NCBI GenBank assembly: GCA_016791005.1
Contig: JAEUNY010000011.1
Coordinates: 1 to 64,000 of the forward strand
DNA: 64,000 nucleotides
Direction of reading: 5' to 3'
Source of the DNA: Zoogloeaceae bacterium
Lineage (GTDB): Bacteria > Pseudomonadota > Gammaproteobacteria > Burkholderiales > Rhodocyclaceae
This document shows positions 28,875 to 36,835 of this stretch, piece after piece. The stretch's first letter is position 1. Each line of letters starts with the position of its first letter. Under the pieces are notes generated by a model, which searched no databases, was not told the DNA's origin, and saw nothing but the letters and a program-made list of their open reading frames with translations. The position numbers and the translations under genes are program-made.

Positions 28875-29089
28875 CGGGTGGCTTCCTCGGCCTGACGGGC
28901 GCGGGCCGCCGCGCCCTCCCGGGTGAGGTCATTGACGTCCTGGCTGAACTGGCGCAGCGACTCCCGGCTGGCCGGGACGCTGGCCGGGCCACCGGCCTGG
29001 GGCGCGACCACCGGCACGCTGGTGCTCAGGAAGTGCTTCGCCGCAATGCCGATGGCCGCCACCACGATGAGCAGCAGGACGATGCGCAT
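28871..29089 (-). CDS. 72-aa predicted single-pass membrane protein coupled to prlC
   Basis: 72 aa. An N-terminal hydrophobic helix (about residues 2-18) is followed by a Pro/Ala linker and a charged helical tail ([21 protein letters not shown]). Its ATG shares one base with the prlC stop (TGATG), a translational-coupling arrangement. I do not recognise a family. It could be an inner-membrane-anchored partner of the peptidase or unrelated. The coupling and good codon use support a real gene. Confidence 0.65.
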
Positions 29090-31176
29090 CAGGCGGCTTC
29101 CACCATGCCGCTGTGGCGCAGCAGGGCATCCACCTCGGGCTCCCGGCCCCGGAAGGCCTTGAAGGAGTCGATGGCCGGGCGGCTGCCCCCCACCGCCAGG
29201 ATCTCGCGCCAGAATCGTTCGCCGGTGTCGCGGTCGAGCAAGCTACCCTTGCCTTCGCCTGCTTCCTCGAAGGCCGCGAAGGCGTCCGCCGACAGCACCT
29301 CCGCCCACTTGTAGCTGTAGTAGCCCGCCGCGTAGCCGCCGGCGAAGATGTGGCTGAAGCTGTTGGGGAAGCGGTGCCAGGCGGGCGGGACGAGCACCGC
29401 CACTTCCTCGCGCACCGCGTCGAGGAGGCCCAGCACCGTGGCCATGGGCACCGGGCCGGCGCTGGCATCCACCTCGTGGTGGAGTTGCAGGTCGAAGAGG
29501 GAAAACTCCAGCTGGCGCACCGTCTGCATGCCGGACTGGAAGTTCTTGGCGGCGATCATTTTGTCGAAAAGCGCCTTGGGCAGGGGCTCGCCAGTGTCCA
29601 CGTGGCCGGTCATGCCCGAGAGCACGTCCCATTCCCAGCAGAAGTTCTCCATGAACTGGCTGGGCAGTTCCACCGCGTCCCACTCCACGCCGTGGATGCC
29701 CGAAACGGCCAGTTCATCTACCCGGGTGAGGAGGTGGTGCAGGCCGTGGCCCGCCTCGTGGAAGAGGGTCTGGACGTCGTCGTGGCTGAAGGTGGCCGGT
29801 TTGCCGCCGACCGGGCCCGGGAAGTTGCACACCAGATAGGCTACCGGCGATTGCAGCCCGTGGCTGCTGCGGTGGCGGCTGCGGGCCGAATCCATCCACG
29901 CGCCGCCCTTCTTGGTGGGGCGGGCGTAAAGGTCGAGATAGAACTGGCCGACCAGCTCGCCGTCCCGCTCGATGCGGAAGAAGCGCACGGACGGGTCCCA
30001 GGTCGGCCCCTCGTCGGGGAGGATGTCCACCGCGTAGAGCTGCTGGATCACGCCGAAGAGGCCGGCCAGCACCTTGGGCTCGGGCAGATATTGCTTCACC
30101 TCCTGCTCAGAGAAGGCGTAACGCGCCTGGCGCAGCTTTTCCGAGGCGTAGGCGGTGTCCCAGGGCTGGAGGGGGTCGAGGCTCAGCTCAGTCTTGGCAA
30201 AGGCGCGCAGCTCGGCCACGTCCCGCTCGGCGAAGGGCTTCGCCTTGGCGCCCAGATCCCGCAGGAAGGCCAGCGCCTGGGCGGGGGAGTCCGCCATCTT
30301 GGGTACCAGGGATACCTCGGCGAAACTCCCGTAGCCCAGCATCTTGGACTCCTCGGCGCGCAGGGCCAGGATGCGGCCGATCAGCGGGCCGTTGTCCCAC
30401 TCCGCCTGGCCCGATTCCCCCAGCACCTCGGACGCCCGGGTGCCATAGGCGCGGTAGAGCCGCTCCCGCAGGGCGCGGTGGTCGGCATATTGCAGCACCG
30501 GCAGGTAGGAGGGCATGTGCAGGGTGAATTTCCATCCCGGCTGGCCGGCAGCTTCCGCTGCGGTGCGGGCGGCGGCCTTGGCGTCTTCCGGCAGGCCGGC
30601 CAGCTCCGCCTCGTCGGTGACGAAGGCGGCGAAGGCGTTGGTGGAATCCAGCAGGTTCTCGGAAAACTTGGCCGACAGGCTCGCCAGCTCCTCCTGGATG
30701 GCCTGGAAGCGGGGCTTCAATTCGTCCGGCAACTCCGCGCCGGAGAGGCGGAAATCCCGTACCTCGTGATCCAGGATGCGCTGGCGGGCCGGGCTCAGGC
30801 TGGCGTACTCGGCGCTCTCCGCGAGGGCCTTGTACTTCTGGAAGAGCTTGAGGTTCTGCCCGATCTCCGCCCAAAAGCGCGACACCTCCGGCAGCATCTG
30901 GTTATAGGCCTCGCGCCAGGCCGGCACGTCCAGCACGCTGTGCAAATGCCCCACCACCCCCCAGGCCCGCCCCAGGTTTTCTCCCGCCTCGGTCATGGGT
31001 ACCACGAAGCTCTCCCAGGTCGGCGCCGCCTGATCGTCCTGCAGGCGCGCGATCAAGGCCCGGTTGTCTTCCAGCAATTGAGTGATCGCCGGCGCGACAT
31101 GCTCGGGCTGAATGGCATCGAAAGGCGGCAGGCCGGTGAAGGTGAGGAGGGGATTGGCAGCGGGTGCGACGGACAT
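29089..31176 (-). CDS. prlC: Oligopeptidase A (M3 zinc metallopeptidase)
   Basis: 695 aa, the usual length of PrlC/OpdA. The zinc site HEAGH lies in LFHEAGHGLHHLLTR, with the third ligand in the downstream EWDAVELPSQFMENFCWE block. The N-terminus MSVAPAANPLLTFTGLPPFDAIQPEHV matches the family; an upstream in-frame ATG at 31272 adds 32 unrelated residues and was rejected. The enzyme degrades short peptides, including signal peptide fragments, in the cytoplasm. A 72-aa membrane protein is coupled behind it. Confidence 0.96.
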   Translation of the reverse strand: MSVAPAANPLLTFTGLPPFDAIQPEHVAPAITQLLEDNRALIARLQDDQAAPTWESFVVPMTEAGENLGRAWGVVGHLHSVLDVPAWREAYNQMLPEVSRFWAEIGQNLKLFQKYKALAESAEYASLSPARQRILDHEVRDFRLSGAELPDELKPRFQAIQEELASLSAKFSENLLDSTNAFAAFVTDEAELAGLPEDAKAAARTAAEAAGQPGWKFTLHMPSYLPVLQYADHRALRERLYRAYGTRASEVLGESGQAEWDNGPLIGRILALRAEESKMLGYGSFAEVSLVPKMADSPAQALAFLRDLGAKAKPFAERDVAELRAFAKTELSLDPLQPWDTAYASEKLRQARYAFSEQEVKQYLPEPKVLAGLFGVIQQLYAVDILPDEGPTWDPSVRFFRIERDGELVGQFYLDLYARPTKKGGAWMDSARSRHRSSHGLQSPVAYLVCNFPGPVGGKPATFSHDDVQTLFHEAGHGLHHLLTRVDELAVSGIHGVEWDAVELPSQFMENFCWEWDVLSGMTGHVDTGEPLPKALFDKMIAAKNFQSGMQTVRQLEFSLFDLQLHHEVDASAGPVPMATVLGLLDAVREEVAVLVPPAWHRFPNSFSHIFAGGYAAGYYSYKWAEVLSADAFAAFEEAGEGKGSLLDRDTGERFWREILAVGGSRPAIDSFKAFRGREPEVDALLRHSGMVEAA

Positions 31177-31712
31177 GAAAACCTCGAAGACGTGGCCAGA
31201 GGCACTGGCGATCCGTGGAATTGTAGCGCTGCTGAGCGAGAGGGCGTGGGATCGGGCGGAGTGCGGGGGCACGAATCAGCGTCGGGCCATATCCGGGCAG
31301 TTACCAGCATTGCGTGGCGGCAGCAAGTGGTCATTCCGTCGCTTGATCCACATCGGAAGCCGACGGACGGCCTCTGGAAGCGGGGCGGCCGGAGCGGGCA
31401 GTCGTCTTGCACGGATTGGAAGACTGGTTCGCACTCCGTTACCGTCGCAAACCCATCAGAACGGATGCAACAACGCAAGACCGAACCCAGTGGTTCTCTC
31501 TGCTTGATGGGGTCAAATTTACATGGCATTCTCGCAAGATGAAGGGGCTGGCAGCTCTTATGTGCGGTTGGCGACACTCAAGCCTACCAAGGCATTGGTG
31601 GCCGTCACGATCCATCTGCGACGGGAAACCAATGACATCAACGCTTCTCATCGCGCCGTTGTCCTCGTTGTCTTGGGCTCCAGCAAGCACGGTGATTTGG
31701 GAGGGCTTTATA
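31177..31712. other. 536-base stretch without a convincing gene; left edge of a lower-GC block
   Basis: The ORFs crossing this stretch are shadows: a plus-strand frame antisense to prlC, and the upstream extension of the permease frame, which lacks a good start or protein-like sequence. Base composition drops from left to right. I see no tRNA, integrase, terminal repeat or clear promoter. A strong Shine-Dalgarno (GGGAGGG, 31699-31705) at its right end serves the permease gene. It may contain decayed sequence from an insertion event. Confidence 0.5.
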
Positions 31713-32801
31713 GTGGTAAACCTCAAGGGTCTAGCGATCTTTGTGCCACACCCGCGCGAATTGATCGCACCGGTGCTCCTACTCGTGGTATTCGGGTTGG
31801 CAATAGCCATGCATCCGCCAAGTCGCGACACGCTGGACTACACGCTCGACTTGTTGCGCTCGATGCTGAAAGACGGCACTGCGCGTGCGCTGTTGGCAAC
31901 CGGCGCTGGACTGGTACTCGCGAGCGCCGGCGTCGACCTGTCTGTCGTTGGCGTTGCTGTGATGTCCGGGGTTCTGTTCGCTTTGGGTGTGCGGCTTTTC
32001 GAATTGGCTCCGGCGGACATTATGCTCTTGGCGTGCTTGATCACCACTTGCGTTCTTATTGGCTCCGGGGTCGGGGCTTTCAACGGCTGGACGGTCGCGC
32101 GATTCAAAGCGCCCGCATTGATCGTGACCTGGGGCATTGGGGCCATTGTCCTGATCATTGCGGTTGGCCTCGCGGAATTGATGCCCCGGATCTCTTCTTT
32201 GTCGGGCCTTATGAACGCGGACGCGAGCGGAATTCCCATCGCGAATGAGTTAGCTGACTTGACATCCGATTCGAAACTGCTTGCCCTGCTGGCGAGTGCG
32301 CTTTTCATTGGCATCCCGATCTTTCTGAGCGCCTTCAATATCGGCCGTAACGCACGTGCGGTCGGAGCACACCGGATCAGCGCCATGTACGCAGGCATTC
32401 GCGTCCGCAAGACGTTATTGGCAACCTATGCAGCCAGCGGCGCTTTCGCGGCGGGCGCAGGTGTCTGGCTCGCGTTGCTCGAAGGCAAAGCAATGACAGC
32501 CTCCTACGCTGGCCTCGAACTCAGTGCAATTGCAATTGCCGTCCTCGGCGGTACGGCAATGAGCGGTGGGTATTTTTCGCCGGTTCCGATCGTGTGCGCA
32601 GCGTACTTCTGGTCGGTCATGCTCAGCTTGCTGCAAGGACCCGACGTTCCCACCGGCTCGTTGAATACCACTTTGCAAGCGAAAGCGGCGGAAGCGTTGT
32701 TCGCTCTCGCGCTAATACTCGTTAGCATCGCACTGGGCCGCAGGTTGAGTGGTGATACCGTGACCATAAACATTCATTCCCGCATCGGAGGAAAAGCGTG
32801 A
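31713..32801 (+). CDS. ABC sugar-importer permease (RbsC-like)
   Basis: 362 aa with about nine to ten hydrophobic segments. RbsC/BPD_transp_2 features include LLATGAGLVLASAGVDLSVVGVAVMSG, the AFNGWTVARFKAPALIVTWG motif (normally GLxxxxLxxPxFIxTLG) and the C-terminal YAGLELSAIAIAVLGGTAMSGG block. The GTG at 31713 was chosen because GGGAGGG sits seven bases upstream; the frame is open for another 100 codons without protein-like content. Its stop overlaps the next gene (GTGA). It is part of a three-gene importer operon with lower GC than its surroundings. Confidence 0.85.
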   Translation: MVNLKGLAIFVPHPRELIAPVLLLVVFGLAIAMHPPSRDTLDYTLDLLRSMLKDGTARALLATGAGLVLASAGVDLSVVGVAVMSGVLFALGVRLFELAPADIMLLACLITTCVLIGSGVGAFNGWTVARFKAPALIVTWGIGAIVLIIAVGLAELMPRISSLSGLMNADASGIPIANELADLTSDSKLLALLASALFIGIPIFLSAFNIGRNARAVGAHRISAMYAGIRVRKTLLATYAASGAFAAGAGVWLALLEGKAMTASYAGLELSAIAIAVLGGTAMSGGYFSPVPIVCAAYFWSVMLSLLQGPDVPTGSLNTTLQAKAAEALFALALILVSIALGRRLSGDTVTINIHSRIGGKA

Positions 32802-33763
32802 AACTCGACCGTCGACGCGTGCTTGCCAGTCTTGCTCTGGCGCCCGCACTGAACCTGCTCGCCGCTTGTTCGCGGCAGGAGTCCGAGCGTGTGCTGTTGC
32901 TCCTGAAAACACTCGACAACCCGTTCTTTCGAGACATTGATGCGGGTTTTCGCAGCAAATGGTCCTCTATGATGGCCCTCGACGTGCGGGCCGGTAAGAA
33001 CGAGGCTGACGTGCCTGGGCAGCGGGTAATACTGGAATCGTATCTGAGAGCAAACGTGCGCGGCCGCAACAAACCGATTCTGCGGGGTCTGGTACTCACG
33101 CCTTCCGATTCCGGCGATGGATTGGTTCCACTTCTGGCCGAATTTCGTCGCGCTGGTATTCCGCTCGTCCTGGTGGACACCGCAATTTCCCCCGAGGCGC
33201 TCAAGGCCGCGGGCACGGATTACAACGTTCTTTTGGCGTCTGACAACTTACTCGGCGGTCGACTGGCTGCCAAGCTCGTTTTGGATGCAATGGCGGGGAA
33301 GAAACAAGCGAACGTTCTAATCCTAAATGGCGTACCGGAAAGCGATACCGCGAAGCAGAGGCGTGAGGGCTTTCTTGGCGTGGTTCAAGGTTCTGGTTTC
33401 GACCTGCGCGAGCGCACCGGAAATTGGCGGCGTTCAGAAGCACGCACCATCGTGGAGTCTTTTCGGATCGCCGGCCAAATTCCGGATGCCATTTTCGCCG
33501 CCAATGACGAAATGGCGATCGGGGCTATCGAGGCGTTGCGTCAAAGCAAGGCCGCGCTTCCGTACATCGTCGGCTTTGACGCAACCGATGAGGCCCGTCT
33601 GTTGGTCAAGCAAGAGATTCTGAACGCCACCATTGCGCAGTCACCAAAGCACATGGGCGAGCGTGCAGCTGAGGTCTTGGCTGATCTGGTTGCCGGAAAG
33701 GCAAGCTACGTGATGCGTGCTGAGCCGGTAGCGGTAGAGGTCGTGACGAAGGCCAACGCATGA
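32798..33763 (+). CDS. Periplasmic sugar-binding lipoprotein (RbsB-like)
   Basis: 321 aa. The N-terminus has a basic stretch (DRRR), a hydrophobic core and a lipobox LAAC with the lipidated Cys at 24. The mature protein has the RbsB/LacI-type fold: LLKTLDNPFFRDIDAGF, VDTAISPEALKAAG, LASDNLLGGRLAAK, LNGVPESDTAKQRREGF, FAANDEMAIGAIEAL and IVGFDATDEA. Such proteins bind pentoses, hexoses or cyclitols such as inositol. It starts at a GTG overlapping the permease stop and ends overlapping the ATPase start (ATGA). The ligand is unknown. Confidence 0.88.
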   Translation: MKLDRRRVLASLALAPALNLLAACSRQESERVLLLLKTLDNPFFRDIDAGFRSKWSSMMALDVRAGKNEADVPGQRVILESYLRANVRGRNKPILRGLVLTPSDSGDGLVPLLAEFRRAGIPLVLVDTAISPEALKAAGTDYNVLLASDNLLGGRLAAKLVLDAMAGKKQANVLILNGVPESDTAKQRREGFLGVVQGSGFDLRERTGNWRRSEARTIVESFRIAGQIPDAIFAANDEMAIGAIEALRQSKAALPYIVGFDATDEARLLVKQEILNATIAQSPKHMGERAAEVLADLVAGKASYVMRAEPVAVEVVTKANA

Positions 33764-35739
33764 GTGAAGAAGCGCCCGCGCTCTTTGCCGACCTATCGAT
33801 TTCTCGCACGGAGGGTAGAAAGGAGTTGAAGGTCGTCGATACCGGCGACCAGCCGTTGCGTCTGCGTGTTGGCTACATCTACACCTTGCAAGGAGCTAAT
33901 GGCGCCGGAAAGAGTTCGCTCATTCGCGCGTTGATGGGTGTGCCGGAGGGCGATGACCCGGTTCGCATGCGCGTTGGCGGTATGGAGGTTGCCGTCAAAG
34001 ATGTCGCCGATGCACTGTCCCATGGCTTGGTCGCGGTGTTTCAGGATGACGAGCTCATTCCGACGATGACCGTGCGCGAGCAGCTTTTGCTGCGGCACGC
34101 GGGCAAGGGATTTCGCACGCTGTTTCGCAACTGGTCGCGCCGACTCTTGCGGCGATTACCCGATAATCGCGGCAACGACATCGCTGAGAAACTAGGCTTA
34201 GAGCGTTCGGTCGAGGAGCAGGTGCTCGAACGAGCGAAACGAATGTTGGAGCAATTCGACGCGTTCGATCCGAACGCGCACTATGTCGATGTACTGGAAA
34301 AGTACCCGCGTCAGCTGTCGGGAGGAGAGTTCGCTGTCGCCCGCATCGTACTGTCACAGGTGTACGAGCGCGTGCGTGTAATGTTTCTTGACGAAATATT
34401 CAGCGGCGTTTACCGCGATGTCTGGCCGCGAATTGTCGACGCGTTTCGCAAGTGGGCGATCGAGAACAGGGTCAGCGTTCTGGTGGTGAGTCACAGCGAT
34501 GCCGAGTTGGTGCGCTGGCGCCCGAACGGCCGCTTTGAAATGAAGGATCGAACGCTGCGCCGGTTGCCGCCCGTGCAGTACGAGGCTGTTTATGCGGGCC
34601 TCCCGGCGCGTCATTCGACGTGCGCTGTCTTTGACGCGCGCAAGCACGAAAAATGGTGCGATGAGATGGATCTTCATGGCCCCTGGATCGTGCTGGTAGA
34701 CCAGGTTCTCGCGCAGACGCCTAGTTTTAAGCGCATTCGAAACCAGCAATTGAGGGGTGAGGTTGTCTTCGAGCTGTCGCTGGCCGGGGGAGAGACGTTG
34801 AAGTCCCTCGATTCAGCAGCCGCCATGCTCAGCAATTTGGCGGAGAACGGCGAAGCATCGCGATCGCTGCGCGGCGGGGCAGTGTTAATTGTGGGCGGCG
34901 GCACACTGCTCAACTTCGGCGGCTTCATTGCCAATGTGCTTTATCGAGGGCTGACAACCGTTCTGGTTCCGACCACCGTCATGGCCATTGCCGATGTTGC
35001 GATCGGTAGCAAGACTTCGCTCAATCTGCTGACCCTCGAAGGCATGCCATTCAAGCATGCGCTCGGGACCTATCACAATCCAGCTGCCATCGTGCTGGAC
35101 AACCGGTTCTTGCAAGAACTTCCTAGCGAACAGCGCCGGCTCGGTCTTTCCGAATGCCTGAAGCACGGCCTGTTGCAGGATCCCGGTCTGTTCAAGCAGG
35201 CACTGGCGCTGATGGTTGACCAGGAGCCTTCGTGGGAGCGCTGCTATGACGTTGCATGCCAAACCATGGAATTGAAGGCCGAGGTGCTGAGTCTCGATCC
35301 CTGGGAAGCCTCTTATGGGCGCCTGCTGTTGTTCGGACATCTGCATGCCCACTCACTTGAACGTCTTAGCGGACTTACGGTGCCGCACGGACGCGCTGTG
35401 ATTTTCGGTCTGCTGGTCGATCTGCACCTGTCTGGCTGTGACGCGTATGCGGAATTGCGCGACGCTAGCGTCAGGTCGCGCGTATTGATACAGAATGGGT
35501 TGTTATCTGCGGCCCAACGCTCGGAAGCCGACTGGCGGAGCGCGTATTTCGCGGACCCCAAGGAGCAACACATCAAAGACGAAGAGATTCACTACCTCGC
35601 ACTGGAGAAGTCCGGACAGTTTCGCGAACCGACGGCGCAATTCAACCAGTCCGTGCGCAAACTCCCATGGAGCCAATTCTGGCCCCAGCTACGTTTCGTC
35701 CTCAACGACATTCAATCCGCCCCCACGCGTGATCGGTAG
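33760..35739 (+). CDS. Fusion of an ABC-transporter ATPase and a 3-dehydroquinate-synthase-like sugar-phosphate cyclase
   Basis: 659 aa. Residues about 1-275 form a single ABC ATPase: Walker A GANGAGKSS (45-53), Q-loop Q95, signature LSGGE (186-190), Walker B VMFLDE (207-212) and switch H245. Residues about 280-659 form a complete sugar-phosphate-cyclase domain: GETLKSL (344-350), NAD-binding GGGT (379-382), PTT (404-406), KTSLN (418-422), the metal/catalytic block LSECLKHG with E465 and K468, FGHLHAH with H527 and H531, and PHG with H543. All three presumed metal ligands (E465, H527, H543) are kept. RbsA-type ATPases normally carry two ATPase halves; here the second place is taken by the cyclase. 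DHQ synthase, EEVS and DOI synthase are the relatives; specificity cannot be told. Confidence 0.85.
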   Translation: MSEEAPALFADLSISRTEGRKELKVVDTGDQPLRLRVGYIYTLQGANGAGKSSLIRALMGVPEGDDPVRMRVGGMEVAVKDVADALSHGLVAVFQDDELIPTMTVREQLLLRHAGKGFRTLFRNWSRRLLRRLPDNRGNDIAEKLGLERSVEEQVLERAKRMLEQFDAFDPNAHYVDVLEKYPRQLSGGEFAVARIVLSQVYERVRVMFLDEIFSGVYRDVWPRIVDAFRKWAIENRVSVLVVSHSDAELVRWRPNGRFEMKDRTLRRLPPVQYEAVYAGLPARHSTCAVFDARKHEKWCDEMDLHGPWIVLVDQVLAQTPSFKRIRNQQLRGEVVFELSLAGGETLKSLDSAAAMLSNLAENGEASRSLRGGAVLIVGGGTLLNFGGFIANVLYRGLTTVLVPTTVMAIADVAIGSKTSLNLLTLEGMPFKHALGTYHNPAAIVLDNRFLQELPSEQRRLGLSECLKHGLLQDPGLFKQALALMVDQEPSWERCYDVACQTMELKAEVLSLDPWEASYGRLLLFGHLHAHSLERLSGLTVPHGRAVIFGLLVDLHLSGCDAYAELRDASVRSRVLIQNGLLSAAQRSEADWRSAYFADPKEQHIKDEEIHYLALEKSGQFREPTAQFNQSVRKLPWSQFWPQLRFVLNDIQSAPTRDR

Positions 35740-35899: not shown

Positions 35900-36835
35900 T
35901 CAACTCACTTTTTCCCCCGTCAGCCGCTCAAACGCATCCCGATACTTGGCGGCGGTGGCTTCGATGACGTCTGCCGGTAGCTCCGGGCCGGGCGCTTTTT
36001 TGCCCCAGTCCAGGGTTTCCAGGTAGTCGCGGACGTATTGTTTGTCGAAGGAGGGGGGGCTGATGCCTTTCCGGTAGGCGTCGGCGGGCCAGAAGCGGGA
36101 GGAGTCGGGGGTGAGGGCTTCGTCGATGAGGTGGAGGGTGCCGGCGGCGTCGATGCCGAACTCGAACTTGGTGTCGGCGATGAGGATGCCCCGGGTGGCG
36201 GCGTAGGCGGCGGCTTCGGTGTAAAGGCGCAGCGCCGCGTCGCGGGCTTCGGTGACCAGCCCGGCGCCGGTCTTGCCGGTGCCTTGGAGGGCGCTGGCGA
36301 GGAGCGCGTCGGTGCGGGCCTGGGCTTGTTCGAAGGAGATGTTTTCGTCGTGATCTCCAACCTCGGCCTTGCTGGCGGGGGTGAAGATGGGGGCGGGGAG
36401 CTTGGCGGCCTGCTGGAGCCCGGCGGGCAGGGCGATGCCGCAGATGGCGCCGGTGTCCTGGTAATCCTTCCAGCCGGAGCCGATGACGTAGCCCCGCACC
36501 ACGGCTTCGATGGGGAGCGGCGTGAGGCGCTTGACCACCAGGGCGCGGCCGCGCACCTGCTCCCGCTCGTCGGCGGCCACGACGCTCTCGGGGTCGATGC
36601 CGGTGAGCTGGTTGGGGACGACGTGGGCGAGGCGGGCGAACCAGAAGTTGGCCAGGGCGGTGAGGACGCGGCCTTTGTCGGGAATTGGGTTGGGCAGCAC
36701 CACGTCGAAGGCGGAGAGCCGGTCGCTGGTGACGATGAGGAGCTTGCTTTCATCCACGGCGTAAATGTCGCGGACCTTGCCGCGCCCGAGCAGGGGCAGA
36801 CTCTGAATGGAGGATTCGAACAGGGGAGCGGTCAC
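35900..36835 (-). CDS. purC: SAICAR synthetase (purine biosynthesis)
   Basis: 311 aa, the longer yeast/beta-proteobacterial form. PurC joins aspartate to CAIR using ATP. Motifs: [30 protein letters not shown] at the N-terminus, [20 protein letters not shown], the [18 protein letters not shown] block and [11 protein letters not shown] with [17 protein letters not shown]. It lies 36 bases downstream of hisC on the same strand. Confidence 0.97.

Follow-up and report, generated by a model that had tools for sequence, protein, structure and literature searches.

The closest described relatives of the system examined here are the importers of the CUT2 (ribose) family, such as RbsABC, AlsABC, and YtfQRT-YjfF, which share with it a permease of the BPD_transp_2 family and a substrate-binding protein of the Peripla_BP_4 family. 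In RbsA, each motor chain carries two nucleotide-binding domains (NBDs), one of which is degenerate (PMC11466899). The fusion gene described below differs from RbsA in having a sugar-phosphate cyclase (SPC) domain in place of the second, degenerate NBD. One counterpart of that domain is AroB, the 3-dehydroquinate synthase (DHQS), with which it shares the fold, the E/H/H metal ligands, the lysines, and the catalytic His. Fusions of DHQS-type domains are also found in shikimate kinase-DHQS proteins and in AROM, but the partners in those proteins are enzymes of the shikimate pathway rather than a transporter motor. The initial annotation of this DNA knew of no described system joining an importer motor to an SPC-like enzyme, and our literature searches likewise found no description of an ABC motor-SPC fusion, although coverage of subscription papers was limited and this is weak evidence of absence. 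The parts of the locus are known; their combination is not known from any described system.

A fused motor gene in a three-gene importer operon

The window, the whole 64,000-nucleotide stretch of Zoogloeaceae bacterium DNA analyzed here, carries an operon in which a permease gene is followed by a binding-protein gene and, last, by the fusion gene, with no further genes and with adjacent genes overlapping by 4 bases (Table 1). Compared with CUT2 importers, the operon consists of permease, binding protein, and fusion only.

Table 1. Positions of features in the window and of the homologous genes at the Thalassotalea locus L131
Feature	Position	Strand	Basis or remark
prlC (oligopeptidase A), divergent upstream neighbor	29089-31272	-	
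Intergenic region, divergent prlC/operon	31273..31712	.	GC drop at ~31400
CUT2-type (ribose family) ABC permease, 362 aa	31713..32801	+	BPD_transp_2, homologue identity, hydrophobic segments, start codons
Lipoprotein substrate-binding protein, ribose/allose type, 321 aa, lipobox LLAAC	32798..33763	+	Peripla_BP_4, structure similarity
Fusion gene, ABC ATPase + putative SPC domain	33760..35739	+	Single 659-aa ORF, ATG start, Pfam/NCBIfam
ATPase (NBD) part, residues ~1-270	33760..34569	+	ABC_tran 33-214; canonical motifs also in Thalassotalea homologue
SPC (DHQS-fold) part, residues 299-659	34654..35736	+	Pfam DHQ_synthase + DHQS_C; AlphaFold; structure matches
purC, convergent downstream neighbor	35900-36835	-	
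Thalassotalea permease (P0006)	L131 4968-6062		Thalassotalea operon gene 1
Thalassotalea lipoprotein binding protein (P0005)	L131 6073-7011		Thalassotalea operon gene 2
Thalassotalea fusion, 684 aa	L131 7008-9062		Thalassotalea operon gene 3

Pfam recognized a single NBD in the fusion (ABC_tran, residues 33-214, E 3e-13), followed by DHQ_synthase (residues 340-458, E 1.5e-21) and DHQS_C (residues 462-581, E 7.5e-15). The NBD has Walker A (G45-S53), a Q-loop, the LSGGE signature (186-190), Walker B up to D211/E212, and an H-loop (H245), and alignment with the Thalassotalea homologue described below found the canonical motifs common to both fusions. Among transport ATPases, those of the CUT2 family were the best NCBIfam match of the window NBD; they were not the closest match of the Thalassotalea NBD.

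The initial annotation had described one uninterrupted frame encoding an ABC ATPase and then a full cyclase domain, and both the 659-residue frame with its Pfam domains and the homologue, which is also fused, bear this out. The positions that it had given for Walker A, LSGGE, Walker B, H245, E465, K468, H527, and H543 are all correct; the alignment shows that the cyclase domain keeps E465, H527, H543, and K468, and the predicted DHQS fold is complete. Its description of the ATPase as an importer motor is supported by the two partner genes, since the permease matches BPD_transp_2 (E 2e-19, Pfam) and the binding protein matches Peripla_BP_4 (E 5.6e-40, Pfam), with ribose/allose binders as the nearest solved structures. 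The two families that mark a CUT2 importer are found together in the operon. From this gene content, the operon appears to encode a sugar importer that is complete in itself, with the fusion as its motor. No sugar kinase gene or cyclitol-processing gene was found in the window operon or in the Thalassotalea operon.

The permease reading frame spans 31407-32801. The GTG at 31713 is the most likely start because it is preceded by a GGGAGG-like ribosome site and because it agrees with the length of the Thalassotalea permease. The approximately 300 bases from 31407 to 31712 are AT-richer and free of stop codons in the permease frame; no homologue of them was found. This stretch could be regulatory, or the permease start could have been misjudged.

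Fold, pocket, and relatives of the cyclase domain

Residues 299-659 were modeled by AlphaFold from 30 sequences with a pLDDT of 88.1 and a pTM of 0.90. The closest structure to the model by VIA-align was A. nidulans DHQS (Z 34.4, rmsd 2.7 over 330 residues), followed by DOI synthase (Z 32.6), EEVS (Z 31.9), and DDGS (Z 31.4). SPC structures as a whole scored Z 30-34 and the next group, iron alcohol dehydrogenases, scored 23.5; Foldseek agrees. The model places the whole domain in the SPC-superfamily (DHQS) fold, and the structure prediction that had been proposed as a check on the enzymatic reading therefore found that fold retained. A full-length model of the fusion (AlphaFold, 8-row alignment) had a pLDDT of 38.6 and was not used.

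Much of the DHQS active site is present in both fusions. The metal ligands E465, H527, and H543, the GGG loop for NAD (G379-G381), and D412, K418, K468, K506, H531, K601, and R396 of the pocket are all kept. H531 is the catalytic-shuttle His; the role of His275 of A. nidulans DHQS is cited in PMC7144000. The cyclase sites that were checked are identical between the two fusions in 14 of 14 cases at a domain identity of 37.6% (hypergeometric P 7e-7).

The pocket nevertheless differs from that of AroB. Eleven residues form the DAHP pocket of the S. aureus and M. tuberculosis enzymes (PMC6262012). All eleven are kept in each of the 21 aligned AroBs and eight in both fusions, in which the same three positions are replaced in the same way (N433H, R520G, and N524L). 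Both fusions also have Asn385 where AroB has Asp, and N385, H433, G520, and L524 are each common to the fusions and found in none of the AroBs compared. The Arg replaced by G520 and the Asn replaced by L524 are those of the RxxLN motif of DHQS. This Arg contacts the carboxylate of DAHP in DHQS, so that a substrate without that carboxylate would naturally follow. Leu occupies the position of M. tuberculosis Asn246, a residue required for activity (PMC6262012), and the replacement of this Asn by Leu524 may have changed the chemistry or stopped it.

Other SPCs match this pocket in part. The DOI synthase BtrC (2gru; sequence confirmed against PDB 2d2x/2gru) matches the fusions at positions 385 (N) and 520 (G) but has Glu where the fusion has L524 and Asn where it has H433, and identity is 20-22%. 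EEVS and DDGS share the fold with the fusion cyclase (Z 31-32). However, in a comparison limited to two EEVS-like proteins and one EboD-like protein, EEVS/EboD lose the Lys at the positions of K506 and K601, both of which the fusion keeps along with H531. The fusion thus lacks an EEVS-type pocket, in which the pocket Lys is replaced and Pro or His follows the metal His. The AroB-related putative phospholyases of TIGR04425 share the GSK..SxN and PHG motifs with the fusion but retain the DHQS Arg and Asn, which the fusion does not, and the window and Thalassotalea fusions scored 130.4 and 133.9 bits, respectively, against a TIGR04425 cut-off of 400.

In a tree of SPCs, the two fusions grouped together (100/100) at the end of a long stem, which fell weakly beside divergent AroBs of viral contigs. 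The fusions and DOIS were not joined with support, although a clade uniting them was not rejected (p-AU 0.095), nor was one with EEVS/EboD (p-AU 0.088); a clade with TIGR04425 was weakly rejected (p-AU 0.039). We file the fusion cyclase as a putative separate SPC lineage whose position in the tree is weakly supported.

The viral contigs from IMG/VR have domains of their own to note. Many of them (L164 and L166-L203) carry a stand-alone SPC near TIGR04425; the two that were scored against that family reached 349 and 375 bits, slightly under the cut-off. It is possible that this SPC is a phage-borne cyclitol or cell-surface gene. On another viral contig (L165:952-2361), Pfam recognized a shikimate kinase joined in one protein to a DHQS-type domain, and a further contig (L175:1063-2430) resembles it by motif only.

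A homologous operon in Thalassotalea and the origin of the locus

A collection with one genome per species, covering 84,980 species, was scanned with the unusual cyclase motifs SEC[LI]KHGL and GGTL[LT]NFG as guides. Artificial alignments that kept only such motifs were used solely to pick them. The scan yielded one homologous operon, at locus L131 of the Thalassotalea sp. MAG ALOHA_ZT_66, with the same gene order and the same domain order as the window operon. The window and Thalassotalea proteins are 32% identical for the permease, 41% for the binding protein, and 35% for the fusion, within which the cyclase part (37.6%) is slightly more conserved than the ATPase part (35.5%). The initial annotation had reasoned that homologues with the two domains always on separate proteins would count against the fusion; the sole full-length homologue found is also fused. 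This homologous fused operon establishes the fusion as a real and old arrangement that is under selection and conserved across two bacterial orders. Directly 3' of the Thalassotalea operon lies a gene for an IrrE/ImmA-like M78 peptidase (L131:9369-10163, minus strand), a type often found on mobile elements.

Further copies were not found in the 1,982 genomes sampled. Plain similarity searches found no fusion in 61 genomes of relatives or in 399 order, 399 family, and 398 phylum genomes, and no third fusion was found in 198 genomes of the order of Thalassotalea or in 194 of the class. The fusion was likewise absent from the plasmid collection and from an exact-peptide genome scan; in these two and in the searches of relatives, order, family, and phylum, only AroBs or ordinary ABC ATPases matched. 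Plasmid searches with the permease and binding protein gave no better lead, and no fusion was found on viral contigs. The best cyclase-domain matches of the first searches (L002-L040), which had been suspected of having transporter neighbors, were set aside, all having canonical AroB motifs. The fusion family is rare in the sampled genomes, with two members known.

The operon was most likely acquired horizontally. Its GC content is approximately 0.58 throughout, compared with 0.65-0.70 in the flanks, and GC3 is 0.63-0.70 in the operon genes versus 0.72-0.89 in twelve neighboring genes. Three genomes of this family have prlC and purC side by side, approximately 0.1 to 1 kb apart and without the operon, compared with 4.6 kb here. 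Within the genus, the one other genome sampled has a different gene set flanking purC and has AroB only, without the fusion. At the borders of the operon, no convincing direct or inverted repeats and no mobile element were found, and an AT-rich border motif is present as a single copy in the genome. In the sister species of the genus (G001 contig C207, L064:1-3000), the genes beside purC are unlike those of other family members, and this neighborhood may have been rearranged repeatedly.

Alternative readings, proposed mechanism, and significance

One possibility for a gene of this kind is that an assembly or sequencing error joined two genes, and the window genome is fragmented (180 contigs, 92.8% complete). 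However, an unrelated assembly carries the same fusion, 35% identical, within the same order of three genes, and the two halves of the window fusion are alike in composition (GC3 0.70 and 0.68), which makes such an artifact extremely improbable. The Thalassotalea homologue, with its shared domain order and operon, indicates that the fusion is not a chance or sequencing join, and this evidence led us to drop sequencing error, a chance fusion of an AroB, and gene decay as explanations. It is also very unlikely that the domain is a dehydroquinate-producing DHQ synthase whose fusion to a transporter is incidental. The best NCBIfam match of the cyclase part is indeed aroB, at 162.8 bits for the window fusion and 169.8 bits for the Thalassotalea fusion, but the curated cut-off for AroB (TIGR01357) is 305 bits, a separate canonical AroB is present in each genome, and 3 of the 11 DAHP-pocket residues, the Arg among them, are replaced. 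For these reasons the cyclase domain is not an ordinary AroB.

The domain might serve mainly as a dimerization scaffold that replaces the second NBD and joins two single NBDs, as would fit the dimeric state of DHQS-type enzymes (PMC9074039) and the presence of one NBD here versus two per chain in CUT2. A scaffold, however, would not need the 14 of 14 catalytic and pocket residues that are conserved between fusions of such low identity, and we regard this explanation as unlikely. A doubtful but less remote alternative is an enzyme, dead or nearly so, whose binding of NAD(H), of a cytosolic sugar phosphate, or of both switches the ATPase on or off (trans-inhibition). Such a sensor would be consistent with the loss of the DHQS-pocket Arg and Asn from both fusions, the Asn being one that M. 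tuberculosis DHQS needs (PMC6262012), with the commonness of plug-in regulatory domains on transporters (PMC10710835), and with the lack of pathway genes in either operon. However, the metal ligands, both phosphate-side lysines, the catalytic His, and the pocket Lys are all kept, which is seemingly more than a sensor requires. Furthermore, DOI synthase, whose enzymatic activity is established, and other SPCs without this Arg and Asn are active. Because the whole catalytic set is conserved, we lean toward a catalytically competent SPC with a new, non-DAHP substrate within the importer over a pure sensor.

The explanation that accounts best for the locus as a whole, and that we hold to be somewhat probable from the sequences compared, is a horizontally acquired CUT2-like importer in which an SPC takes the place of the second NBD and acts as an enzyme or a sensor, with metal, NAD, and a non-DAHP sugar phosphate for its ligands. 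The dimeric nature of DHQS-type enzymes and the single NBD per chain suggest a homodimeric fusion as the simplest assembly. The importer would then comprise the lipoprotein binding protein, two permeases, and two fusion chains, which would provide two competent ATP sites and be held together by the ATPase pair and by the SPC dimer below it. The binding protein would hand over a free sugar or polyol, which the permease and ATPase would import. At the cytosolic face, the ligands of the SPC would be NAD, a divalent metal, and some sugar phosphate different from DAHP. Either the SPC would convert the sugar phosphate or its occupancy would control transport. Import of a sugar or cyclitol would in this way be linked to the amount of a sugar phosphate in the cytosol or to its processing.

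The substrates of known SPCs are sugar phosphates, whereas the ligands of ribose-type binding proteins are free sugars. Because of this difference, and because neither operon has a kinase gene, the direct import-then-cyclization picture of the initial annotation has a gap. If the SPC converts its ligand, the phosphate would be made from the imported sugar by a kinase, which must be encoded elsewhere. The stronger proposal, that a single polypeptide combines a transporter motor with an active SPC of new specificity and so couples uptake to carbocycle formation or to sensing at the catalytic site, as a vectorial enzyme-importer for which no counterpart has been described, is put forward tentatively.

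Members of the SPC superfamily produce the core structures of aminoglycosides, acarbose, and sunscreen compounds. If the fused domain is active, it would add a new cyclase specificity and would be one of the few enzymes that form a physical part of an importer, and if transport and cyclization are coupled, the function is possibly a categorically new one. If the domain is a sensor, it would represent a new way of regulating sugar uptake, with NAD or a cytosolic sugar phosphate as the signal. In both cases, the two fusions provide a two-member system ready for testing, and their single-NBD layout lets the role of the degenerate second NBD in RbsA-type importers be tested by comparison. In the two distantly related bacteria that carry it, the fusion may tie uptake directly to sugar-phosphate metabolism.
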